Under the pieces are notes generated by a model. It saw only the letters and a program-made list of their open reading frames with translations. It ran no database searches and had not been told where the DNA came from. The position numbers were made by a program, and so were the translations under genes. A stretch of 64,000 bases of DNA from Prostheceraeus crozeri (lineage: Eukaryota; Platyhelminthes; Polycladida; Euryleptidae). This document shows, piece by piece, positions 6,211 to 63,852 of this stretch. The stretch spans positions 310,001 to 374,000 of the forward strand of contig CAJQUW010005245.1 of NCBI GenBank assembly GCA_907163375.1, read 5' to 3'. Positions within the stretch are counted from its first letter, which is position 1. Each line of letters starts with the position of its first letter.

Positions 6211-7500
6211 TTACATCGCATATGAACTCGACTGCATAGGCAGTGTTATTTCAGTTCCGCGACGGATGACAGCACTTTGCCATGGAATGGCACCAGCATC
6301 CGAGTTGAAATAGTTCATAAACTTTTGTCTTACTTTGTAAGCATACTTCGAACATGAAGTTTCTGACATATTGGAAATATCTTCCATTCCTGCATCTTCA
6401 GCGGTAATTTGCCGCCATCCTCCTAAATGAAGTACACCATCTTGATCTTCATAGTCCACAAAATTAGATGGACAATACCTGGTTTCAGGTACAGATTGAC
6501 CATCCTTTGATTTGACATAATTATGGAGGAGAACACAAGCCCAGATAATGGAATCCACAACATCAGCAGTGCACTCAATCGGGCGCCTGAAGATTCTCCA
6601 TCGTGCTGATAAAATACCAAATGCATTTTCTGCAATTCTTCTGGCTCTGCTGAGTCGGTAATTGAAAACTTGCTTTTCATCAGTCAGGTTTGTGCCAGAG
6701 AAGGGTTTCATGAAATATGGTCGTAATGGAAATGCGTCATCACCAATGAATACATGTGGGACTTTCTGGTCGGCTCCAGGAAGAAAATTTGGGGACGGAA
6801 GATGTATACTTTCCTTATGCAGTGCTTCAGCAACATCCCAGTCACTCCAAACTCCGGCGTCACTTTCTCTCCCACTTCTGCCAATGTTCACGAGACGAAA
6901 GAGATATTTGGCATCGACTATGGCCATCAGTACAACTGAGAAGCTGTTCTTGTAGTTGTAGAAATTGCTACCGGAGTTTGCAGGTGCTGTGATAACAATG
7001 TGCTTCCCATCACATGCTCCGATGCAGCAAGGAAAATTCCAATAAGCCCAAAACTCTTTAGCGATTTCTTTGAAATCATCCTCAGAAGGAGGTGAAAGAT
7101 ATTGTTCTTGAAGAGCAGCTCTGATCGCTTCGATCGTTTCGCGAAAGATTTTGTTGACTGTTGATTTGCCCATTCGGAAACTATGAGCGACACTTTGTTG
7201 AGAATTTCCTGTTGCTAGTAAACGCAGGGTGACTGCCAGTCTTATTCGAGGAGAAATTGGGTAGCGATGGGTGGGTTCGTGATATATAAATCTTTCCACT
7301 TTCTCGAGAAGATTGTCGAAACTTTCCTTGGACATTCTGAAGTAACTAAAGTGCGTTTCTGTATCCATTTCCCGCATCTCGTCGATCAGACAACATTCAC
7401 TTCTTATGTTACGAGGAATATTCAATGGTCGAACATACCAACGTCGTTGTCGTGACTTTCTTTTATGGTGATGAAAGTAAAGAAGCACAAGTGGATCCAT
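6211..7500 (-). CDS. Harbinger DDE transposase (HARBI1-like)
   Basis: A single-exon 429-residue transposase that would cut and rejoin the element ends. The N-terminal third contains a helix-turn-helix-like region (NSQQSVAHSFRMGKSTVNKI, about 99-118). The catalytic DDE/nuclease core carries GACDGKHI (Asp164), the conserved GRSGRESDAGVW (Asp214), FIGDDAFPL (Asp254/255) and RRIAENAFGIL (Glu291), all in the positions expected for HARBI1/PIF proteins. Length is near the usual 350-430. The start is the ATG at 7500-7498, the first after the right TIR on this strand. There is no internal stop. An AATAAA lies 34 bp after the stop (6177-6172). It converges on the MADF gene, its usual partner. Confidence 0.95.
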   Translation of the reverse strand: MDPLVLLYFHHHKRKSRQRRWYVRPLNIPRNIRSECCLIDEMREMDTETHFSYFRMSKESFDNLLEKVERFIYHEPTHRYPISPRIRLAVTLRLLATGNSQQSVAHSFRMGKSTVNKIFRETIEAIRAALQEQYLSPPSEDDFKEIAKEFWAYWNFPCCIGACDGKHIVITAPANSGSNFYNYKNSFSVVLMAIVDAKYLFRLVNIGRSGRESDAGVWSDWDVAEALHKESIHLPSPNFLPGADQKVPHVFIGDDAFPLRPYFMKPFSGTNLTDEKQVFNYRLSRARRIAENAFGILSARWRIFRRPIECTADVVDSIIWACVLLHNYVKSKDGQSVPETRYCPSNFVDYEDQDGVLHLGGWRQITAEDAGMEDISNMSETSCSKYAYKVRQKFMNYFNSDAGAIPWQSAVIRRGTEITLPMQSSSYAM

Positions 7501-23125: not shown

Positions 23126-26100
23126 CTAGACGCAACCGTAAGATCCACTGGAGATACACGACGGACTAGACACAGTACTAGACGTCGACCCGCGATACTC
23201 TTGGCTTGCACTTGAACTTTCTACACTGCCCATAGTATAAAAGAGATCATTGTCATGTGCGGGACTTTGTAACGTGGAAGTGGGAGGGCAATAGCCTTGT
23301 GGGAAATGGCTCCAGCCGTAAAACACTTGATCTAAGACCCATTTGTCACTATTGAATTCTTCCAGCTGAACGACATTATTCCGATCACGGATTTGTAAAC
23401 AAACATGATGTATGAGTTCTTCGATCAGATATAAGGTTTGCCTGTGTTCGTGACTCATCAAGCAAACAGTAGAGTGTGCAACAACACTTCGCAATGTCTC
23501 AAGATATGTAACTTTGAGTTCATCGTTATCAAAATGATTGTCCAAATAAGCAAGTAGTCGGCACCGCTGGCTAGTTAGGTCGGCAAAGTCAATGAAAAAC
23601 CTCGAGCACATGTAAGGTTCTAAGCTTCGAATATCGGCGCAGTTGACAGGTCGGTAACCTTCAACAATAAGTCGGCAGTATCGCAAAAGTCCTCCGCCGC
23701 GAATTTCTTCAGGATTCCTCGTTGCAATGAGTTTGTTTTTCAGGTGATACAACGCCTCTGCAAAACTGCCGGACACCGCCTCAGCCACGACTGTCGGATA
23801 AAAATGCTTTGTCATTGGTTGGTGGCAATAATCTGAATACTTTAAAAGAGAGTCGAGTATTATTTGAAATGAGTCAACAGAAAATTCAAATTGTCGGCGC
23901 ATTCGATCGACGAATTTCAGCTCTATTGACATGCGGCCTGGTCCGTGTTGGCCCAAACCGAGCAAGTACCAAGAGTCTCGTTGGTTCTGAACACGCACCA
24001 ACTTCCCAATGAAAGTCTCGGCGAGTTGGGATTCCGTAGACAGATGTGACGAAGTCCTCAACAATGAAGGTTTTGATGGAGGGAGCAGTGATGGCGAGGA
24101 TAGAGATGGTGGCGGGGTTGATGGAGGTGAAGGGGTAGGAGTATGATCCATGGAAGAGGAAGAGGAACCCGACATCTCACGGCCCCGAGAGGTCCGCTTC
24201 TTGGTCGCAGGGTGGAAGAACTCAATCAGTGATTGCATGACAACTGATTTGATGGTGGAGATTGTCTCCAAGTCATTCAATTCAACTCCAAAAAGAAGAT
24301 CAATATCATTGAAGGTGGCATCTTTCTTCAATCCTGAAATGCAAGAGAGCATCATTAGTTACAGAGGCTAAAATGAATTCATAACATGCAACAAAACGCT
24401 GTCTGCTAGAAAGAATTCATTATGAAAAAATATCATATCTTATGCAAATACTTAATGCAACACTTGCGGAGCTCACACAAATGAATTTCAAGCAGCTGAT
24501 AAGTTCGCAACTTAATACGAAAACTCGATATTAAGTGCATAATCGCTAAACTTGAAGATTTTAGAAAGCTAGGTGGACAATGATTTGGAATCTCCAATAT
24601 CGAACTGATATGATCCAACCTTGGCAAGAACATTATGCATTTCGACTGCACTAGCAGTAAATAGAGAAAATCAAATAAAAAGCCGCCATATTACAATAAA
24701 TTGACAGTTAGAGCAGAGATTTCGTTGTTTAGTGTAATGTCGAAGCATTTCATATTAATGAAACTATGTAGTAGGATTTTGAATCGCAAGCTGAGTTATA
24801 AAGTTGTTTCTGGAAAATAATAAAGCAAAAAGTTGTGATTTTGATTCTTGATCTTTCAACTTTACTATTTTCTCTAGAACAGAGCAACCAAATTAATATG
24901 AATATTTTGAAAAAGATAGTCTATTACACTTCCTACTTATTTTTAGTATAAAATATTTACCAATGAACGATTAGAATATTGACGATGAATGATCAGTTCA
25001 GCGTATGCATTCTCAGACGTAAGAACTTTTAAGATTAATAACTTCAATTAAATTTCTCCGGCTATCTTACGATTATAATTCTCATTTTACAAAATAGAAT
25101 TTAAAGAAGATGTGCCTTCGAGTCAAATTTTGAACAACTAGCGATAACCGTTTCAGTACATCAATACATTCATGGCAGACGCAAATGTCTTCCCAAACTT
25201 CATTTTGTGAGAGCTATTACAGCACACTGATCGATCAAATCCAACCGAGATCCATATTTCTTCAATATGAATCTGCTTGTTTTCAATGATGGTACACTTT
25301 AAAAGTTCTTTATAAAACAAGAAGATCCAACAAATTGTCTGACCTTACATCAGGTTATGAAATAATGAAACATTTATGACCAATTTGAGTTTCAAGAATA
25401 TGTTGAATCCAGTTGGGAAGCGCTCATTCAATCGACAAGAAATTCCTTGACCAGAAAAGTTTATTACTTTCCTATGTAGTTACGAAAACAACAGCTGTTC
25501 TCAACAACGATTTGTACTGTCATGCAGCGGTAGAATCGATTCAAGTCAATTACTTTCGATCAGAAAGAGCAGAGGGTTGTACACAGTCTTTGCCACAGGA
25601 GTACACATGCGCAATATGTGAGCTACCCTTACTGTCTTCAAAATGCTAATCAAAGACAATATCTAAATAGAATACCATGAGCCATACAGCCCTCATGTTA
25701 TCACGCAGTATAGTAATGTTCATGTTGCCAGTAGTCTGTATGATCAGATCAATTCGTGTCTGTAAGGATGTGGGGATCATTATGAACCAATTCCTGACAT
25801 AAAGTGACATTTTCGTAACCGGTACATTCCAGACAGATAAACAAAGCACATTCACATAACTCCGATACCAATGTAAGCTTACGTATTCCAATGTTACTAT
25901 TGTACATACTGTAGAAATACAAAATTACGAATATCACTTGAACATTCATTACAATGTCAAGGTCTTTTTCAACTAAGTCACTGAAATTCAGATTGCTCAA
26001 ATCGATTAACTCATGAACTAACTTGTATATATATTGATGTCCGTTATGGCTTTATGGCTTTATCTGTCATACAAGCATTAGTTGTATTGCTATATGCAAT

Positions 26101-35800: not shown

Positions 35801-36590
35801 ACTAAATCACTATATTTATATATAATAGATTCGGAAATAAACGATGTCATGAAGAATCTTCTTCCATGTAAATAATGACAATTAATTAATTTCTTTGCGC
35901 AGTGATCCTTTCTTCTCAAGGCTACCTCACACATAATGTCTCTGAATAAGAATGGAAGGCACACAGATACAACTACGACAAGTACATGTTGCATGTTATG
36001 CACATAGCCTATCATGTCATGTGAAAGAACAGATTTATGTGTAGGCGGAGAGATGAATGAAATAGTTTATTGCTATTTACGTCAAAGTTGGTTCTCCATA
36101 TTGCATGCATGCCAGAATGGTGGTTGAAGGCTAAAATAATAACAACCTTATTCGCAGAATAAATCGTAGTTATAATGGAAGCAAAATAAAGACAAAAGTA
36201 AATACAAGCAGAAATGAACAAATTTCAATAATACATTTGTATCAGTAATGCATTTTCTATCAAATGAAAAGAAATGTTGGTAGATCAACATAAATCATTA
36301 TTCAATATGTTTGACGAGTCTAAAAACGTTCAAATGACGAGCATTCTATAGAAGTAATGCTTTGAAAATTCTTTGCATGATTCAGAATAAAAAAGTTAAA
36401 ACTTTTGAGACACCCTGTATACGCATCAATATGAAAATATATGTTTATTATTGACTTTTACTATCCCTTTTCCAGATGATGACTTTTGAATTCAATTGCC
36501 ATTAATCAAACGCCTATTTGCAACTCTATATCATCAAAACTGTAATTTAGAAAATGAATGAAGCTCAAATAAGTCCATGCCATAGAGTAA
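32840..36590. other. Region upstream of TENT5, nothing coding recognised
   Basis: The first few hundred bases beyond 32840 should hold the TENT5 5' UTR and perhaps its promoter, but I see no TATA box or other motif I would call. A GC-richer patch lies near 34270-34390. Two TAGGCCTA palindromes occur at 33963 and 34110. No protein family or transposon end found. Confidence 0.35.
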
Positions 36591-37195
36591 GCATAAGTAT
36601 ATTTGCGTAGAGTGGTAACTCAGCATTTATTAAATTCCCAATGTGTATGCAGTTTCGATTTCATTAAATCAGGGATGCGGAGTCGGAGTCCCAGAGTCCT
36701 ATCATTTTTGCTGGAGTCTGAGTCCTATCAAATGATAGAACTCCGGACTCCGGCCTATAACTAGACCCAAAATATAATGCAAGCAAATTATTTAATCTTG
36801 TGCATATAGCTGTCACTGTCTTGATGTCAACTTTTTCCGTCAAACAAAAGTACAGAGACACTGCTGTATGCAAAGCTTGTAATAGTTGAGGGAATGAACC
36901 GTGATAGTGAAAAAAGGATTGTCTTTTTACTCGGTGATTTAGTAGAGAAGACAAGCCTTCCTTGCCTCGATCACACCTACGTACGAAAGGTCACATCGGA
37001 GACAAAAATGAAATACTAGTTTGTTTGAGAACATTACCTCTTACCCTCACGTTAATCGCGTGTGATGGCTCCTCTAAAGCGCATTAAAGTCGAATCAGCT
37101 GTTATCAACTGCTGTGGCTGACAACTCCTGTCCAAAAATCTTTGGATTATTGATTTTTTATCACGTGACTGTCCTTCAATCGCCATTACGTCAAA

Positions 37196-37951
37196 ATGAC
37201 AAATGTATCAGCTGACGATCTTTCATACAACAACGTGCGGAAGATGTCTGATAGCGACATGAAGAAATTGACGAAGCAGCAACTCGTGAATGCATTAAAG
37301 ACAGCCATTCAGCAAGCTGATGTTTCTGCTGTTCAGCCGGTCGATGCGGATGTGATTAAAGCGGCTGTCTCTGAGGCCGTTGCTGAGATCAAAAATGAAT
37401 TGTTAAGTGAAAGCTTGAAACTGATTATAGACGTTGAATCCAAATTTGAAGCTAAGATTAGTACTTTGACTGACATGTTGAATGCGACGCGTTCTGACAT
37501 CATTGATGAAATTCAGCTTCGTGATTCTAAAAAGAATAACGTCGTAATATTTGGTATGAGCGAGACCAACGAAACATACTCAAGTACCGGTAGCAATCGT
37601 AATAATGATAAAGACGCCGTCCTTGATTTAGTGTCGACAGTTGGTCTAGAGAACGAAGTGAAGGTCTTGCGATGTTTCCGACTCGGTACGAGGCGAATTA
37701 ATTCGTCACGTCCTAGACCTGTCAAGGCTATTCTTGAGTCTGCCAGCCAAAAGCTTTCGCTATTGAAAGCTTCGCCTAAGTTGAAAAAGCTTGCCAATGG
37801 TCACAAATTTCGCATGGTCTACATTGACAAGGACCTAACACCTGAACAGCAAAAGAGCGAAAGTTTATTGCGCTTTCAGTTAAAGCATCGCAGAGATATG
37901 GGAGAAGACGTGTTCATAAGGCGCGGTAAAATTGTCTCTCGCTCTTCATGA
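37196..37951 (+). CDS. LINE ORF1 protein (RNA-binding, RRM-like)
   Basis: A 251-residue protein expected to bind the element RNA and form ribonucleoprotein particles. Residues about 15-110 are Lys/Glu/Leu-rich and likely helical or coiled-coil. From about 114 there is an RRM-type ORF1 domain (NNVVIFGMSE at 114-123, a basic RPRPVK at 172-177, DKDLTPEQ at 211-218), the order seen in ORF1 of CR1/L2/Jockey relatives. No CCHC knuckle is present. It ends with TGA nine bases before the ORF2 ATG in the same frame (TGA-CTG-CCT-TCC-ATG), an arrangement compatible with termination-reinitiation. Confidence 0.8.
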   Translation: MTNVSADDLSYNNVRKMSDSDMKKLTKQQLVNALKTAIQQADVSAVQPVDADVIKAAVSEAVAEIKNELLSESLKLIIDVESKFEAKISTLTDMLNATRSDIIDEIQLRDSKKNNVVIFGMSETNETYSSTGSNRNNDKDAVLDLVSTVGLENEVKVLRCFRLGTRRINSSRPRPVKAILESASQKLSLLKASPKLKKLANGHKFRMVYIDKDLTPEQQKSESLLRFQLKHRRDMGEDVFIRRGKIVSRSS

Positions 37952-37960
37952 CTGCCTTCC

Positions 37961-40567
37961 ATGCCCTCACTACTTTTGATTAACGCCCGTTCCATTGCAT
38001 CTGATGGAAAAATGGACGAATTGCGTCTATCCTGCTCGTGCCTCGACCCAGATATAGTTATTGTGACAGAATCTTGGTTAAATGATGCCCATGATGATTC
38101 CTTCTTTCAAATGCCGAGTTTTCAACTTTTGAGATGTGATCGCAATGATCGTATTGGTGGTGGTGTTGCGATATGGATAAAGTCAAATATTTCTGTCACT
38201 CGTCATAACTTTTCTTGTGTTCGTTGTGAAGCTATTTTCATATCTTTTAAGTTGAAAAACTACAATTTTGTGCTACTGACTATGTATATTCCGCCTCAAT
38301 TGCCTGTGACTTTTCGCAAGGAGATATCAGATAACATATGTGATCATTTAGATGCTGTTGCGAAAGATATACCAGATGTTAATATCATTGTTGCTGGTGA
38401 TTTGAACAACTTCGAAACATCTTCATTACAAAGTGCATACGATTTGGTCGACAAAGTTGTGACTCCTACACGTGGCAACGCCGTTTTAGACCGAATATTG
38501 GTCAGCCAATCGCTTGCTGATAATTATCCACCTGCTCATGTAGGTCCACCTTTCAATCTGAAACGTCGGGGCTCTCATTGTCAAGTATTTTTGCGCCCAA
38601 AAGTAGACAGTGTTAGAAATGTTCATGAGCATAAACGTGTATTGTATGATACAAGTGATCATCATATTTCCCAATTTCTTTCTAAGCTCAATGATTGTTC
38701 TTTTGCTGAAGTGTATAGTGAATCAGATGTTGACAAAAAAACTGAATTGTTTTATGCAAAATTCTTTGAGTGCTTGTCTGCTTTTCCATGTAAAGTTGTA
38801 ACCATGACATCGAAAGATAAGCCGTGGATGACACCGTATTTGAAAGATCTGATGAACAAAAGGTGGAAGGCTTATCGCGAGAGAAATTTTCCGTTGTATA
38901 ATCATTATAAAGAGAAGTGTAAATATGAAATTGTGAAATGCAAAGAAAAGTGGGTTCAGAGTTCAAAGGAGTCTTCGCGAAATGTGTGGAATGTAGTCAA
39001 TGACATAAAAGGCAAGCATAATGGCAACCCTATTTCGTGCATAATGCAAGAGTACCCGGATGGTCAGACTGCCGCCGATGCTGTAAATAGCATCTTTGCT
39101 GATTACCTAACTGACAGTGAGCCATTGACATACTGTGATGACGATGATTGGTGTCCTTTGTCGGATCCTATTGATGTGTTTAACTTTTTGGATAATCTAT
39201 CTTTGCGTAAAGCTACTGGCTCTGATGGCATATCAAATCAATTTTACAAGCTGGCTTCCCCCTTTATCTCAGAGCCTCTTTGTAACATTATTAACTCTTC
39301 TGTTATAGCGAGAAGGGTGCCGTGCATTTTTAAAAATTGTGTAATTTCACCAGTCCCGAAATGTATGCCTGTTTCCATTCATGAACTACGCCCGATTACT
39401 TTGTTGAGTGTACCAGCCAAGTTGCTAGAATATCTTGTGCTGAAGCATATGCGTGATACATTTTGCAAAAACATTCCTGATTTTCAGTTCGCCTATAAAC
39501 GTCTCTCGAACACTACTTCTTGTCTAATTACGATGCATGATGCCGTGACTAGCATATTGGACTGCTCTGACTCAGGAGGCTGCATTATGCTAAACTATGA
39601 TTTTTCCAAAGCTTTTGATACTATTTGTCACAATGTTCTTGTCCGGAAGCTTATTGATTACTGTTATCCACATGGTTTTATTTCTTGGCTTTGCTCCTAT
39701 TTAACAAACAGGTACCAATCTGTGAAAATGCTTGATTCTCTTAGTCAGCAGCGTATTGTGACCAGTGGTGCACCCCAGGGATCGCTCTTGGGTCCATATC
39801 TTTTTGTCCTGTACTGTAGCGATATAAAGCCCATGTCCACGACTACCGTTTTAACTATGTATGCTGATGACATTTGGGAAATCTGTCCTATTTATAGGAA
39901 TGATATTGTCAAGTCTTTGGGAGCCGTGTCCGAAGAGTTTTATAATATATCAGAGTGGGCTGACTTGAACAAATTGAAATTAAATCAATGTAAAACAAAG
40001 GCTGTGTGCATTTTGAAGAAAAATTTCTCTATTGTCTTCCCTTTTCCATTTAGTATTGTGAGCGAGTTAAAGATTCTCGGAGTAACTTGGAATAAGGATT
40101 TGAAATGGAACTCACATTTCCAGAATGTTATTTCTTTGTGTAATAAAAGGATGTATGTGCTTAGAGTGTTGCGTAGACTGTTAAGTCATGACGAGTTATG
40201 GTCTGTTTTTAAGGCCACAATTGAAAGCATTTTGCTCTATTGTACACAATTGTTTGGCGTTTACAGTTTTGAAACGAGACAGCAGATAGAAAGAATTTTC
40301 AAACGAGCTCGGAGAATTATCTGTAAAAATGATTGTATTTGTGCCAACAGTATATGTTCATTAGATAAAGTTCGCTTTCAAGCCTACCTTTCACTTTTTT
40401 ACAAGAGTCAGAACGTCGATCATCCTCTTTTTCCTGTTGTTCCGCACGTGCGTAATGATCGACTAATTGTACCTTTTTCTAGAACTAGCAAGAGACAAAA
40501 TTGTTACACTGTTCTCATCACCTTGGTTTTTAATGGTCTTTCTGACCTAACAAGTATACCAGCTTAA
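37961..40567 (+). CDS. LINE ORF2: APE endonuclease and reverse transcriptase
   Basis: An uninterrupted 868-residue enzyme that would nick target DNA and copy the RNA in place. The N-terminal APE-like domain shows Asn8 (LLINARS), Glu37 (TESWL), GGGVAIW and VAGDLNN (Asp147, Asn149). The usual final SDH motif reads GSH (204-206), so the catalytic Asp appears replaced by Ser. The reverse transcriptase contains LRPITLLSVPAKLLE, NYDFSKAFD, SGAPQGSLLGPYLF and MYADDIW (active site Y634-A-D-D637), followed by a thumb and a Cys-containing tail (RARRIICKNDCICANSIC). Full length for this group; the possible loss of endonuclease activity is inference. Confidence 0.92.
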   Translation: MPSLLLINARSIASDGKMDELRLSCSCLDPDIVIVTESWLNDAHDDSFFQMPSFQLLRCDRNDRIGGGVAIWIKSNISVTRHNFSCVRCEAIFISFKLKNYNFVLLTMYIPPQLPVTFRKEISDNICDHLDAVAKDIPDVNIIVAGDLNNFETSSLQSAYDLVDKVVTPTRGNAVLDRILVSQSLADNYPPAHVGPPFNLKRRGSHCQVFLRPKVDSVRNVHEHKRVLYDTSDHHISQFLSKLNDCSFAEVYSESDVDKKTELFYAKFFECLSAFPCKVVTMTSKDKPWMTPYLKDLMNKRWKAYRERNFPLYNHYKEKCKYEIVKCKEKWVQSSKESSRNVWNVVNDIKGKHNGNPISCIMQEYPDGQTAADAVNSIFADYLTDSEPLTYCDDDDWCPLSDPIDVFNFLDNLSLRKATGSDGISNQFYKLASPFISEPLCNIINSSVIARRVPCIFKNCVISPVPKCMPVSIHELRPITLLSVPAKLLEYLVLKHMRDTFCKNIPDFQFAYKRLSNTTSCLITMHDAVTSILDCSDSGGCIMLNYDFSKAFDTICHNVLVRKLIDYCYPHGFISWLCSYLTNRYQSVKMLDSLSQQRIVTSGAPQGSLLGPYLFVLYCSDIKPMSTTTVLTMYADDIWEICPIYRNDIVKSLGAVSEEFYNISEWADLNKLKLNQCKTKAVCILKKNFSIVFPFPFSIVSELKILGVTWNKDLKWNSHFQNVISLCNKRMYVLRVLRRLLSHDELWSVFKATIESILLYCTQLFGVYSFETRQQIERIFKRARRIICKNDCICANSICSLDKVRFQAYLSLFYKSQNVDHPLFPVVPHVRNDRLIVPFSRTSKRQNCYTVLITLVFNGLSDLTSIPA

Positions 40568-40616
40568 CTTTGTGACTATTTAACTTTGTGATATATTTTG
40601 TGATTTTCATTTTGAA

Positions 40617-40636
40617 AAATATATATATATATATAT
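40617..40636. repeat. (AT)n microsatellite at the LINE 3' end
   Basis: About ten AT dinucleotides directly follow the LINE 3' UTR and probably represent its 3' tail. Confidence 0.85.
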
Positions 40637-40898
40637 TCTCTTCTCTATTCTCTTTTAGTGTACTCATATTTTTTGGAGGAGACTGGAGAAAAACCGTGTG
40701 AAGCACACATCAACAAGATGGAAGCAGTCGAGTCGTATGCATACAACTGAAAGCGACATTTGATCAACTTTCATCGAAAATGATTGATAATTGATACAGA
40801 AATGATCACTAATAATAGGTTCAGGTAAGCTTATAATGATCAATGTTGCCAGTTAATTTTTCAAAAAACTAGGCTGCATATACTTGTCACCCGGAGTC

Positions 40899-40925
40899 GG
40901 AGTCCTATCAAAATGATAGGACTCC
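40899..40925. repeat. 12-bp perfect hairpin near the right hAT end
   Basis: GGAGTCCTATCA (40899-40910) pairs with TGATAGGACTCC (40914-40925) around a 3-base AAA loop. A similar, imperfect hairpin (GAGTCCTATCA, AA, TGATAGAACTC) lies near the left end at about 36728-36752. Confidence 0.85.
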
Positions 40926-41689
40926 GCATCCCTGCATTAAATGAGCATGAGTCGAGACCATGTAACACACGTGAGATATGCAAATTTTTACACTTTTGGA
41001 GAAATGTACACGAATTTGACTGATGATTATAGCAATAGAGAAGAAAGAAAAGTAATTTACAATTCTTCCATGTCATAGCAACATTGGAGAGGTAACATGG
41101 TTTGTAAAATTAGCAATTTGATAGGTTGCCTTTACTATATGCTAAGCCGTATCATAATAAGATGATTTTCTTAAGCGTGATCATATCACAAACTGCCACT
41201 GGAAGAGCAAAACATCACAATCAAGGAAGATTATCCTAATTGACTCTAAATGATGTTAATGGGTTCACACTGCTATTCAGATTCAAGAAATGACGTCTAG
41301 TGATCCATAGAATCATGTCGATGAAAATTAAAACAAAAGCACGACATCTCAGCCAAGAAACTCTCATAAGATCAATTAACTTTTTTTGAAGACTTGCAGG
41401 GATTTTGCATTATGTAGTTCATGAAATTTCCTACATCATCAGCTTAATTTCCGCTTAATTAAGATGCTTGTTAATAAATATTCATTCCTTTTGATATCCA
41501 ACTTGTTTCATACTACTTATAAAGTGGGCTTCATGCCGGTAGTATATAAATTTGCAAACAGTTAACTTTTTAAAAACTACTCGAATAATTTTTTAGACCA
41601 CAGGAACGTATTCTCCGTAAAAAACTGAATCTTTTCTTATAAAAAATTTCACTGTATACAGACACTTTTATTGAGTCGACAATCTACCT

Positions 41690-43325
41690 CTTTACGGTAT
41701 ACTTACTCTATCGTCCATGCATTTTTGCACGAAATTTTTTGTAACATGATAACAACTAGTGAAATCTTTATGAACAATCGAGAGATTCTGATCGCTATTC
41801 CATTCGACTTCCAAGTTATCTTTATCTTCAATCGTTCCTTGAGGAGTGAATGTGCGTAGGTCAAACACGACCAAAGATAGGCGAGACAGGCATCACAGTG
41901 TCATCTTCTAATTTTTCTATTCTTGCAAAACACATCCGATCATTTCGAGTACTATTTTCAATAATTTTTCATTCGAGTTGTAATTTTCCACCTTTCACAT
42001 TGAATGAGTGAAATGGGAATGAAATCGTCATTCACATATCATGACTGGATCACACGAAATGAAATGGATTATGGCCAAATTAATTAATTTGATTTTTACA
42101 TGGAGAAAATCAGTTGAGAATAATATCTTCAACTATGAAGCGATTTCATTTCTTATTGAGAATTTCAATGATTCTTTGCATGTTGTTTTGGAAATAACCA
42201 ACGAAAATAATTTCATAAATTAAATGAGAGCCATTGCGGCATGATAAGATCATGCACTAGATCTATCCGCCAGTCTGTTTTTGAAGAATTATTAATTTAT
42301 TGAAGCGCTCCAGATTATGAACCATTTTCTGCTTGTTTCGATAAATTTAATTAAAAGAAAATTGTATAATATTCTTGGCAAATTTTCAAAATTCTTCAAT
42401 TATTATCGTTATTTTACTTTTGACTTTAAAGTACTTTCTCATGTCTTATTCAAATGCTTTCAGAATTCCATTCAGAGCACATGGTTGCAGAAAACTCCAG
42501 GCGCCAGAGGCAATTATTACAGTGAATCAAGTCTAAGCTGTCATTCTCGCATAGCTTTAATCTGTTCGCGTGTGCGGTTGGATTCAGTTACTCACGTCAA
42601 AATTTTAAATCAAAAGCATCATTGCTTCAATAAAATGGCTTGTATTTCTCATTGTGACCATGTGAATTTGTGAATTTTTTAAGGAATTCTTCTATAACTG
42701 CAAAGCTTTCTTTTGAAAATTCAGCTGTTATAAGTAGGCAACTATACGAACCATACAAATGTGTGCCTCTCAGATTGTTACAGTTATCGTTTACCCATGA
42801 CTTTACGTGAATGAATTAATTCATGTACCGCTGGGGTACGTTGTTGTAATGAAACATCGCGTAAAGCATAAGATCAGATTTTCGACATGAATTCGGTGCC
42901 CAGTTTTCCTCGATGTGCATTTTCAATGTATATTACAATAAACTTATCACCTTTCTGAAAAAATAGAAAGCCTTTCAATGACAAAGTAATTTATCAATTT
43001 AATCAATGTGAGTTTGGATAGAGTCAAAATTTGTTGATGTTATTATATGACTTTCATTATGGATCATGTACAAAATATTTCTATCATAACACAGTGCTTA
43101 TCAGGTTTAAAAGAATATCTTAGACTTTTGTATTTGTAAGCTATGTTATGCTACTATGCCCCCGTTATGGACCGCATGGCATATGAATTTGATTTTGATA
43201 TCCTCGTAGCTTCCTGTCTGAGATTTTCTTTTAAAATTGAAGATAGAATGTGATGAGAGATAGATATTAATTGTTGATGATCAATGATAATTGTTTTGCA
43301 ATTCCAAAATTACAGTACTGCCGTC
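41690..43325. other. Intergenic stretch, no gene recognised
   Basis: Short open frames only, including one of 118 codons at 42317-42673 with no family features. No repeat termini noticed. Confidence 0.4.
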
Positions 43326-54466: not shown

Positions 54467-57400
54467 CTAATTTGTCTTTCTCTGCAGCCGGTGCAGTCCT
54501 GGCCTGAGATTCCTTTGGTGCGCAGCTAAAGGCAATAATTGGCGGTGCAGCATGTGCTCTTTCCGCATTATTTTTCGGAATAACTTTCTGTCCATTTCCG
54601 CGTCGACTTCATGGATATCCGCGGGCTTGGCGTATCCGTAGCGTGCTCCTCGCTTCATATATTTCTCGATGCGTTTCTTATCATCTGTGCTCGCGAATCT
54701 CCACCAACTGGGTACGGCGTACATAATTCTACTTGTCACCATCGCTGTGCAAATTTGATGCAGCAGTATTTGATTAGCACCTCGGCTTCTTGATATCTTC
54801 ATGATATACAAGCTTTCATTGCACTTCTTAAGTAATTTGCTGACGTGGATGCTCATGGTTCGTTTTGTGTAAAAGTGACTCCAAGGATCGTAATTTCGTT
54901 CGCTCTTCTTATGTTTGGCAGCTCTGGAGGTTGAATGTTTGATCTAGGTCTTAGGAAGATAATTTCTTGCGATTTCTTTTCGCTGAGATGGAGATTTCTG
55001 ATGTTGATCGCCCAATGTTTGATGTTCTACAGTTCTTGTGCTGTCGCATAGAAATTTTCTGGTGGCACTATGAGATATGTGTCATCCGCATATTTTAAGA
55101 TAGCGTTCCCTTTGATGGTCACCTTCAAGTCAGACACAATTATTGAGAAAGCACTTGGTCCGATCACTGAGCCTTGAACTACGCCTGCATGGATATTAGA
55201 TAATTTTGAGGATAGTTCATTCATAAGTGTTGCTTGTTTGCGATTTTCAAAGAAGCTAATCATCCAGTTGTATATTTCATCAAGCAAATTCATATTACCG
55301 AGGTTTTGAAAAAGGGCTGAACGCTTTGCTGTGTCGAATGCTTTTGAGAAGTCTAGTGCTACCAGTCGGACTGCTTTGTTAATTTCGAGAGCTGATGCTA
55401 TCTCATTTAATATTGCTATCAGCGCTGCAGTTGTGCTTCCAGTTGGTCGGAGGGCAAATCGGTCAGCAAATTGGATGCTCTCCATAATAGCTCTGTTGAT
55501 GAATTTCTTGACGATCAATCTTTCACAAAGTTGTGACAAAACTGGTGTGATGGAGATTGGTCGAAAGTCACCTGGCTTTGATGGTCTTGGTGTCCTTGGT
55601 ATGGAATTTGCAAAGGCCAGTTTTTATTGCTCTGGTGCAATGCTTATTTGAGGGGACCTGTTGATGAGCCTCGCTAGCGGTTCACAGATGTTATCAGCTG
55701 CCAAACGTAAAAGCCATGAAGGTACACATTCGGACCCTGTAGCAGTTTTCTTCAATTTCGATAGAGCCATTTGTATTTCATACACTTCGAAGTGTTCGTT
55801 GAGGCCGTTTGTTGGTCCCTCTTTCCGCATGACTTCTTCATAAGTATGATCAGTTGAAATTTCTGTGTAATATTCATTCATTGTTTTCGCACAAAGCTTA
55901 CTATGTCTCGAAGTTTCCTTTTCCTTCCTGGCTATGTTTCGTATTTCAGTTTATTTGAATTATCGATTATAATGATTTCATTCATCTTTTCGCTTATGAT
56001 GCCAGTTTTGGTCACATTACCCTTCCGCATGCACTGATTCTTCTTCCGAAGTAAACGCTTAATATATGGTGTAACAAATAAGGGGTCTCTCGAAGTTATT
56101 GTGATTCCTTTCTGCGGAAAGTATAAATCCATAACAGCATAAAGCAATAAGTAAAACTCGTTCGATGTTTCTTGGAAAGTGCCAGCCAGCATCTGGTTCT
56201 AGTTTCAACTTGTTGCGAGACATTTCTTCGTGGAAGCGGGCGATGTTCTTCGGGTCTCTTACTCTGATTACTTTGTGATGCTTGGTTTTTGGAGATTTGT
56301 GCCGTTCGTTATGATTTTCAGTATTAATGCCAATGATGCATTGGTGGTCAGACTTCACAGCCGATTTCAAAACTGAAACATTCAATAGCATTGTTTCACT
56401 TGTGTATATCCTGTCCAGAGGGCGATCTTTCCTTGTTGGTGCCTTAACAATATCTAATAGACAGGTTGATTCCGCAATCTGCCTATCATCGAGTTCATTA
56501 AAGTCTCCTGCAAGTATGATAGTATGTTTATGTTTAGGGTAATTGACTCAGTAATCGCTGACAGTGGTTTCCAAGTAATCGAGAATAGGTACAGTGTATG
56601 ACGCTTTCGGTGGGTGATAGCAAACGCCGATGATGTAGTAGGCATTACTGAGAGAGGTCTTAATCCATATAACTTCGTGGTCTGATGAGTTATTTATTTT
56701 GGAATAGTGCAGATTGCTTTGTATATAATTATTGCTATGCCTCCTCCTTTTCGCCTTTCTCTATCCTTCCTAATAAATGTCGTATCCTGGGAGTGAAATG
56801 ATCTTCCCATCATGATGCTGCTTTAGGTGAGTCTCTGCTATATAGCCAAGTTAGATGTCATACCTGTAGTGTGACACCTTGTGACATGATGTCAGTTCAT
56901 GTAGTGCACCGATATCTGGCAGTAAATCTATTGATGGTTGAAGCAACGGTTGTTCTGAATGAGTATAAATAATTTAAAAATTTTTAATTTAAAAACAATT
57001 TAAAAAGTAATTGTAAAAATACCCACCAAGGTCTGCATACAGTTGATCTCTTGCATAATGCTTTGCAATAGATGCGACGTTCAAGACGTAGATATTAGGT
57101 ATTGTTCGAGTATCAGCTATGACTTTGTCGTTTCGTTGTTCATTATGCGGTATATCAATCAGTTGACGTGTTTTGCAATCCTTGATCTCTGCGTTTGTAG
57201 TTTCTGGTCTACCTCCTCTTCTATATATCACCTCAATGGAACGGATTTCTTCAATTCCTGCGCTTTAGAATCCCTGTTGTTGCATTGCTGATCTTTCCGT
57301 CTTCCATTTATTTTTTCTTTTCCCTGATCGTCTTTTTCTTTTTGTTCCACCTCGCTTAAATCTTTTCCTGATATCACTTGGGATTTCGAATGGGTTACTC

Positions 57401-60823: not shown

Positions 60824-61618
60824 GTAGAGTGTCGACTGAAAATGTACCTATATACAGCAAAAAATTTTATATGAGAAAATTCAGCTTTTAACGGAGAGTG
60901 CGTCCCTGCGTTCCAAAAAATTATTTGAGCAGTTTATAAATAGCTGAATTCTTGCAAATTCATATACTACCGACATGAAACCGCTTTATAAGTAGTATGA
61001 AACACGTCGGATATCAAAAGGAATGAATGTTTCATAACAGGCATCTTAACTAAGCGGAAATTATGCTGATGATCAAGGAAATTTATAATGGAAGTCTTAA
61101 TGAAAAAGTCGAGAATTTATTATGCTTTCTAGACTGAGATGTCATGTATTTGATTCAATTTTCCTCGACATGATTTTATGATTCACTAAATTTATGTTTC
61201 ATTTCTTGAATATGAATAGTGATGTGGACCCATTTACATCTGTCAAAATTAATTGAAATCATTGTATTTGATAATGTGATTTTACTCTACCATTGGCAGG
61301 TTGTTTGTGTTATGATCACGCTTAAAAAATACTCTTAAGGTTGAGCATGAAAGTAATAGTAGCCTATCGAATTGCTAATTTAACAAACATAACCTCTCCA
61401 AGGCTGTCATCACTCCAAGATCTGTAAAATGCTATCATTCCTTCTGCATTACTATCATGATACAGTAAATTCTGAGGATTTTTTTTAAAAAAATTGCGTA
61501 TCTCACATTTGGTAGCAATTCCAAATTGTGTTCACCTCGAGTTCATTTAATAAAATCGAAACTGTATAGACATTATATACACATTGGGAATTTAATAAAT
61601 GCTGAGTTGCCACTCTAC
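60824..61618 (-). mobile_element. Repeat R, copy 2 (uninterrupted)
   Basis: A 795-bp reverse-oriented match to copy 1 (36607-41687 minus the hAT). Shared blocks in R orientation include CAGCATTTATTAAATTCCCA, GTGAGATACGCAA, TTAAGCGTGATCATA, CATTCATTCCTTTTGATATC and CATACTACTTATAAAG. The sequence at the hAT target reads TTTATTAAATGAACTCGAG with no insertion. The ends (GTAGAGTGTCGACT at 60824 and the complement of GTAGAGTGGCAACT at 61618) are weak inverted repeats, suggesting a small DNA transposon. No coding frame. Confidence 0.8.
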
Positions 61619-61619
61619 C

Positions 61620-62463
61620 TAATATACTTATTCTGTGGATCCATCTAACATAAGCTTTTGTGATGTTTGCTTTCAGCGCATTTCTAACTCTCATTCAAAA
61701 ACATTGGAATTTGACTCACTGGAAAGAGGCATTTATGACCTATTTTGAAAAGCAATTTCTTCAAATGTCTAAATTTTACTATTTTGTGCAAAGCCATGCA
61801 TATAAAAACTTCCAACGAAGTCCATTGATTTTCAATATGAGCGCATCATTTGATTGATACCAGGCGATAATAAATAATGACAATCTATTATAGGCCTACC
61901 CTAGAAATTGAATGCAATCTTAGAAATGTGATTCAATCTTGGAAATTCGAATAGTATGCAAACATGCTGCATATTATATTTTTCAGTAATAATCGCACAT
62001 TTAATAATTGTAGTCACTTTTGTGTCTTCTCTCAAACAATTGAAAATTTTGGATATCCTCATTCTTCTTTATAATTGCATTTCGAGGTACAGATTGTTTC
62101 ATAAAAAATGGATCACCCTTAAACATCGCCTTAACTTCAACTTTGTCTAACTCCGCCAAATTTGGACGAATTTCTCTGAAATTTGGAAGATATGTCAGTT
62201 GTACTTACTAATATCATTGTTGGAAATTTCAAGCATGAATATTGAGTTGTTTTCCTGTTATAGATATAAAAGTAGTAGATAATTTGATCTTCATTTAGTA
62301 ATGTTACACAAAATCATGCCTCACTCTTATAAAATTACATTTGTTTCCTTTGTCGTGTAATATGCTGTTCTACAAGCCAAAAGCTATCAAGCAAAACAAA
62401 AATAAAGAAAATCGGTCAATCAGAGCCAGTATAGCACCATTATTCATCAACAATAATGTAACT
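61620..62463. other. Intergenic stretch between repeat R and MITE S
   Basis: Short frames only; nothing recognised. Confidence 0.4.
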
Positions 62464-62856: not shown

Positions 62857-63852
62857 ATGAACAATAACGAGATCGCGTTCACAAAAGGCAAAGTGTCAGC
62901 CTTGCTAGAACTGGGGTTTTCTTTGTGAGCTACAAGCAAGCGACTAAATGTCCCTTACACAAATGTGCATCGATGGCATAATGATGATTTTCGACTCTGT
63001 CGTAAAGAGGGCTCTGGCCGTCCACTCAAAACATCCAAACGTAGAGACCGCCTAATTTTGAGATTTGTTAAAGTTGATCCAAGTCTCTCGTTAACTGAGA
63101 TGGCTGCACTAGACTCGTCTATTTCTAAGTCCACTATTCGTAGAAGACTTATTGAGTCGAATTTCAAGAGCTGTAAGAGGCCCTCTCAGATCGAATTATC
63201 AGATCAGCATACAAAAAGACGTCTCAGATGGGCAATGAGTCATTGTTACTGGCGAAATTAATGGGATCGGGTTGTTTGGTCTGATGAGGCATCAGTCCGT
63301 CTGAAGGATAGTGATGGTCGATTGAGATTATGGATAAAATCTGATCAGGAAATTCCGAGACATTTACATCGTCCCCGGGTACAAGGTGGTGCGACTCTAC
63401 TGATTTGGGCTGGCATTTGGACCAATGGCCGCTCTGAACTTCACATACAGCAAGGAACCATGAATTCTGAACGCTATGTGAATGTTTTACGAATGAACAT
63501 TGGCCAAATGACAGATCAACTTGGTGATCCATCGACTTGGTTATTTATGGATGATAATGCTACGTGTCATAGTAGTAGTAGAGTCAACTTATGCAAGTCT
63601 CAATTAGGGCTTAGGACATTATCTTGGCCAGCTCGTTCTCCTGATCTGAATCCCATAGAAAATGTATGGAGTATTCTAAAACGTAACGTTCGTCGTTTTC
63701 TGCTACCTACAGATGGCGTATCACAACTTACGTCACTGTTAAAAAGAGAGTGGAGAAAGTTTGATCAGTCAAAAATCAACGATGTCATCGAATCAATGCC
63801 TAGACGAATTGGTAATGTCATTGACAATAAGGGTAGGGCCACAAAATATTAG
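62857..63852 (+). pseudogene. Tc1-like transposase with two in-frame stops
   Basis: A full-length Tc1/mariner transposase reading frame, 331 codons from ATG 62857 to TAA 63850-63852, without frameshift. The N-terminal paired-type HTH is readable (TKGKVSALLELGFSL, then RLNVPYTNVHRW), followed by the GRPLKTSKRRDR linker. The catalytic triad is complete: first Asp in VVWSDEASV, second in FMDDNATCH, third Glu in SPDLNPIENVW, with 34 residues between the last two (DD34E). Two stops disable it: TGA at 62926-62928 in the HTH, probably from CGA, and TAA at 63259-63261 just before the first catalytic block. TIRs were not identified; the element may run past the window edge. Confidence 0.88.

Follow-up and report, generated by a model that had tools for sequence, protein, structure and literature searches.

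Nested insertions allow transposon families to be dated relative to one another with no need of a clock. A locus at which one mobile element lies within another, and both within a third, raises the question of whether the order of their arrival can be read from it and of what kind of element forms its outermost level. We addressed this for one such nest in the window (the whole 64,000-nucleotide stretch of DNA analysed here), which consists, from the inside out, of a LINE in a hAT-type element in a repeat that we call R. Our main reading, to which we give a probability of roughly 85%, is that three ordinary transpositions occurred at this one spot, those of a P-superfamily-type R MITE, then of a hAT-type element and then of a LINE. 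The predicted three-level containment proved real, with the ends, both 8-bp duplications and the empty relatives all present. The nest itself is of an ordinary kind, common in repeat-rich genomes, and both outer elements have copies without the inner ones; both host levels can be checked against insert-free relatives in one genome. Nest-based chronology is an established method (PMC3014933, PMC5657132); TinT (PMC3014933), for example, likewise orders element activity by interruptions of one element by another, using a genome-wide matrix where we have one locus. A limited literature search on ordering transposition events by nests returned no paper, and we do not claim from it that the nest or the R family is absent from print. 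The original prediction was right in outline and is partly supported by our results; what had to be corrected are the nature and limits of R, the empty site, which holds at the level of the family, and the late arrival of the LINE, which is a deduction.

An alignment of copies defined R as an inverted-repeat element of ~850 bp with ends of ~28 bases, starting with CATAGAGTAAG and ending with CTCTATG. On the forward strand of the window, its left part (36581–36669) starts with CATAGAGTAAG in an ~28-base inverted end common to other R copies, and its right part (40943–41712) ends with ACTTACTCTATC, the usual R end being CTCTATG. Identical 8-bp target duplications, GTCCATGC, flank the whole at 36573–36580 and 41713–41720. 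The inverted ends together with these duplications give limits of 36581–41712, so that the span of 36607–41687 proposed earlier falls short by 26 and 25 bases inside R. Similarly, the claim of an anonymous ~800-bp repeat family stood as to the family, but R is not anonymous: it is a DNA transposon of ~850 bp that has inverted repeats and is flanked by an 8-bp duplication of its own, GTCCATGC. The final 8 bases of its left part (36662–36669) are the left copy of CATTAAAT, the duplication of the hAT-type element, the right copy of which lies at 40935–40942. This duplication is perfect and the element has CAGGG ends, both as predicted, the left one being CAGGGATGCGGAGTC at 36670 and the right one its complement, which ends at 40934; the inverted ends form a 15-base perfect pair. 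The left (36670–37094) and right (40657–40934) parts of this hAT-type MITE, both on the forward strand, amount to ~720 bp with the LINE removed. The LINE, also on the forward strand, ends at 40656 and starts at either 37092 or 37095, since the GAA at 37092–37094 fits the hAT or the LINE side of the left junction.

A second R copy (60824–61637), on the reverse strand of the same window, is uninterrupted at the hAT site. When the two flanks of the hAT-type element were joined with one copy of the duplication, they matched this region in reverse orientation, as had been predicted for 60824–61618: 623 of 861 columns were identical to the reverse complement of 60824–61634 (E 4e-131), in one piece running through the junction, and with R's own limits the match to 60824–61637 was 72% (E 2e-131, 454 bits). 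The window is 64% A+T, and AT-rich DNA could conceivably produce such a match by chance; however, 500 random sequences that preserve the base-to-base transitions scored no higher than 39.2 bits, and 39 further scored places in the genome match at 79–82% over most of the query. Chance similarity of the R copies, the main refuting condition set with the prediction, is thereby excluded. As for the site itself, the other R copies carry nothing there that would speak against an insertion: no letters stand between the two flanking columns in 21/21 other aligned rows, 11 of which read TTATTAAATGAA while the remainder differ by point changes. Neither of the two conditions named beforehand as refuting the prediction was therefore borne out. 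The paralog at 60824–61637 lacks the outermost bases of the right end, and a target duplication around it was looked for and not found. It had been described as showing the target before insertion, which holds in the family sense, but it is another R member at another place and not the same site in its earlier state. The empty sites of both R and the hAT-type element are related empty sites, that is, other insertions of the same families, and not this locus before the event.

We characterized the R family further in the window's own genome (2.05 Gb in 14,165 contigs). With 60824–61618 as query, 42 matches were obtained, for which the best 40 of 12,082 candidates were scored; beyond the query itself, they comprise two fragments and the above 39 places, the majority of which are close to full length. 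In an alignment of 22 rows (20 fetched copies with flanks, the window copy and the paralog), 15 rows show 8-bp duplications with at most one mismatch, versus 161 of 4400 random pairings. Two of these 15, L047 and L051, may represent a single insertion that entered the count twice: although on different contigs, they have their flanks and their duplication, AGTAGGTC, in common, owing either to segmental duplication or to the retention of both haplotypes in the assembly. The left end sequence of R recurs with at most two mismatches 4522 times in forward and 4661 times in reverse orientation, giving 9,183 matches, a number of end sequences and not of complete copies, and the backward control gave none. 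A coding remnant of a P element was not found in R: stop-free stretches in the 20 copies reach at most 119 codons, and four of the longest such pieces (119, 88, 73, and 73 aa) matched no Pfam family above the cut-off, the one weak match among them being ubiquitin-like (E 0.04). In addition, perfect R ends are regularly spaced on two contigs, by 5833 bases twice on C46 (47163, 52996, and 58829) and by 5337 on C4 (4996 and 10333), which suggests larger tandem units containing R.

At the middle level, a search with 40560–40964 gave 41 matches (best 40 scored of 3105 candidates), from which 19 other loci were taken. In the other copies of the family, the left part (36670–37094 or a piece of it) directly adjoins the right part (40674/40679–40934) in one element of ~720 bp. 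Fifteen of the 19 loci were aligned, with L018, L021, L027, and L028 left out as their left part is only partial. The LINE is present in 0/15 aligned copies; 13 run straight through its site, at which L010 and L026, the remaining two, show small deletions. The window copy itself is without ~28 bases, starting 22 bases past the LINE, that are present in other copies. Duplications flanking the 15 copies are perfect in six, perfect in one more on the assumption that its last base has changed, one mismatch away in two, and unmatched or with ends that could not be fixed in six. The 22-base end, with at most one mismatch, gave 2631 and 2519 matches in the genome and none in the control. MITEs of the hAT type have CAGGG-type inverted ends, 8-bp duplications and a short length, all of which are matched by the window element alongside its thousands of end-sequence matches. 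By its ends and its 8-bp duplication, the element at 36670–40934 minus the LINE can be classed as hAT-type, with a putative link to a hAT transposase. The family copies L010–L028 also contain an exon-like stretch, namely an ATG, a C/H-rich peptide and then CAG|GTAAGC. The peptide had 10,176 first-look candidates, of which 150 were scored, and one of six peptides, the one joined across a frameshift, gave a zf-BED match below the cut-off (E 0.038). We rejected coding constraint on this stretch: substitutions at the three codon positions number 48/872, 61/874, and 45/871, with no third-position excess.

The innermost element has two open reading frames on the forward strand, both intact: ORF1 (37196–37951; 251 aa), which matched neither a Pfam family (up to E 0.001) nor a PDB sequence (up to E 1), and ORF2 (37961–40567; 868 aa), which combines an endonuclease domain (PF03372, Exo_endo_phos; E 2.9e-8) with a reverse transcriptase domain (PF00078, RVT_1; E 7.3e-23). 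These are followed by a 3′ tail of (TA)n and TTCTC-rich sequence. The junctions are clean, with hAT sequence up to ...TCGAA, then the LINE, then AGTGTACTC..., and no target duplication was seen at the junctions around 37092–40656. A genome search with 40000–40700 gave 42 matches (best 40 scored of 143 candidates), and 20 LINE copies were fetched. Nine of them begin matching exactly at 37092 and continue upstream, eight being alike by eye over 150 bases of this upstream stretch and L077 only near the junction; because these nine share further sequence upstream of 37092, part of the 5′ region of the window LINE has been lost, making it slightly 5′-truncated. The other 11 have later starts, which in L061 at least is due to the end of the contig, and the 3′ ends of all 20 fall at window 40639–40662; the copies thus have variable 5′ starts and a shared 3′ end. 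APE-type two-ORF LINEs have an ORF1 followed by an ORF2 with endonuclease and reverse transcriptase, undergo 5′ truncation and carry a repeat-like 3′ tail. The window LINE matches them in ORF order, truncation and tail, and on the ORF2 domains, variable 5′ starts and shared 3′ end we class it with this type.

From these relationships the following course of events can be proposed. An ~850-bp non-autonomous R element would have inserted by cut-and-paste, duplicating GTCCATGC; an ~720-bp hAT-type element would then have entered it at CATTAAAT, duplicating those 8 bases; and a LINE copy would have been reverse-transcribed into the latter between ...TCGAA and AGTG..., with loss of part of its 5′ region and without a visible target duplication. 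R and the hAT-type element would both have been moved by transposases supplied in trans, presumably of the P and hAT superfamilies, respectively. The original prediction held that the order of the three events can be read directly. This is so for the first step, for R is certainly older than the hAT insertion in this R copy, but not for the second, which we infer from divergence and from the lack of a second composite; containment does not prove it because a hAT-type element already bearing the LINE could have jumped. In such a scenario the LINE entered the element elsewhere and the composite of ~4.27 kb later moved as a unit into R, and the perfect CATTAAAT copies and 15-base hAT ends are as compatible with a recent jump as with an old one. 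Against this, among the best 40 of 3105 candidates for 40560–40964 no place besides the window spans both LINE and hAT sequence, and among the best 40 of 143 for 40000–40700 no other match extends past query position 663, seven bases beyond the LINE. Moreover, the window hAT copy differs from the majority of its 15 copies by 0.057, within the 0.038–0.067 of its relatives, while the LINE lies less than 1% from its closest copies (of the nine that match from 37092, seven differ by 0.25–0.65% and two by 2.3–2.8%); as the LINE values are pairwise and those for R and hAT are from a family majority, only their order should be read. For R, the divergence from the majority of 20 copies is 0.215 in the window copy and 0.149 in the paralog, values that are not fair ages as the copies were chosen as best matches to the paralog. 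Since the hAT-type element is as diverged as its relatives, the LINE nearly identical to its closest copies and no second composite present among the scored places, a jump of the composite is improbable, and the LINE likely arrived last, completing the order R, hAT, LINE.

What, then, is R? Its 8-bp duplications (15 of 22 rows) are a feature of the P and hAT superfamilies alike, and further evidence for its affinity comes from the P elements of the same genome. The P HTH family gave 150 scored matches of 699 candidates, all of those listed exceeding the cut-off and many lying in long open frames; matches were found in none of 14 control genomes. We fetched eight P loci of the 150 listed, belonging to several families, and could fix the ends of only two families, both of which start with CATAGAG, the same seven bases as R. 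The first (L081, L090, and L091) has its own ends, CATAGAGGTAGAATAT..., and the second (L083 and L093) starts with CATAGAGGTAGAGTTTAGTAGAGTGCTGAGTAAC, its two members being alike to within one base of the terminus at 98%. One of these CATAGAG families has the full P transposase domain set and the other a P HTH match in an 874-aa frame. When the first 40 bases of R were compared with the second family, the score exceeded all 2000 shuffles; with the first family, 65 of 2000 shuffles reached it. In weighing the motif, one should bear in mind that the L083 end was itself chosen, among seven loci, by a search for five motifs that included CATAGAG. The motif also occurs in L084 and L086, as a putative terminus, and is absent from L082, L087, and L088. 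The shared start and the shuffle scores support, but do not prove, a P assignment, and judging from sequence features of this kind we consider R to be very probably a P-superfamily MITE.

The competing possibility is that R is a non-autonomous element of the hAT superfamily, which the 8-bp duplications would fit equally well. hAT elements prefer targets in which position 2 is T and position 7 is A, a bias that the 15 good duplications share (8/15 at each position). On the other hand, the CATAGAG start is that of two P families of this genome, and an inverted end of ~28 bases is long for a hAT. It fits the 27–31 bases given for Anopheles P elements, in which 8-bp duplications are likewise found (PMC1562414). 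We regard a hAT origin of R as unlikely and retain the P-superfamily assignment.

Among the eight P loci fetched of the 150 listed, none is an autonomous P element with R's own ends. One candidate parent was a P element on contig C2783 (L085/L089), where a mismatch-free R left end and 528 bp of 87% similarity to R precede a 738-aa P transposase frame. This frame contains THAP, P HTH, RNase H, and GTP-binding insertion domains and matches the P transposase structure 6p5a (E 2.1e-20). We rejected it as R's parent, as the element has its own P termini and its own duplication, ACAACAAC; three other copies of this P element (L081, L090, and L091) show where its ends lie, and the R stretch proves to be a separate, truncated copy next to it. 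Between the two lies a mosaic of other repeats (~650 bases), and a search further downstream (L092) yielded no R right end. As a separate observation, in 13 of the best 40 scored places the match is confined to one and the same inner stretch of the P transposase (query 302–1259; 92–93%), suggesting a deletion-derived family that has kept part of the coding region.

The closest parallel comes from the P-MITEs described in Anopheles gambiae, where P inverted ends of 27–31 bp and 8-bp duplications are reported, ten MITE families are associated with six of nine P subfamilies, and copies per family number 5–310, or 44–571 in another passage (PMC1562414). They resemble R in being short, with P-like ends, 8-bp duplications and transposase-bearing P elements in the same genome; they differ in that R has no parent sharing its ends among the eight P loci fetched, and in that 9,183 end-sequence matches, as opposed to complete copies, face their 5–310 copies per family. 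It may be, although we would put this at somewhat below even odds, that few P-superfamily MITE families on record are as numerous as R, which would have several thousand copies in this 2-Gb genome, and that the P transposase's own element has a different inner sequence or was lost, the MITE having outlived its parent. Through the nest we arrived at what is probably a P-type MITE family, and a very large one, in a genome where P-transposase matches number at least 150; the two together could serve to study the spread of P elements and their MITEs.

Beyond the nest, the window holds several other protein-coding stretches. A 429-aa open frame on the reverse strand (6214–7500) matches DDE_Tnp_4 (E 1.1e-28), which we take to be a Harbinger-type transposase, and a 176-aa frame on the forward strand (63322–63849) matches DDE_3 (E 1.6e-13), presumably a piece of a mariner/Tc1-type transposase. 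A further retroelement piece is seen in a 170-aa reverse-strand frame (55030–55539) that matches RVT_1 (E 2.4e-14). Finally, a 409-aa frame on the reverse strand (23129–24355) matches NTP_transf_7 (E 1.4e-92), and is presumably an exon of a TENT5/FAM46 host gene.
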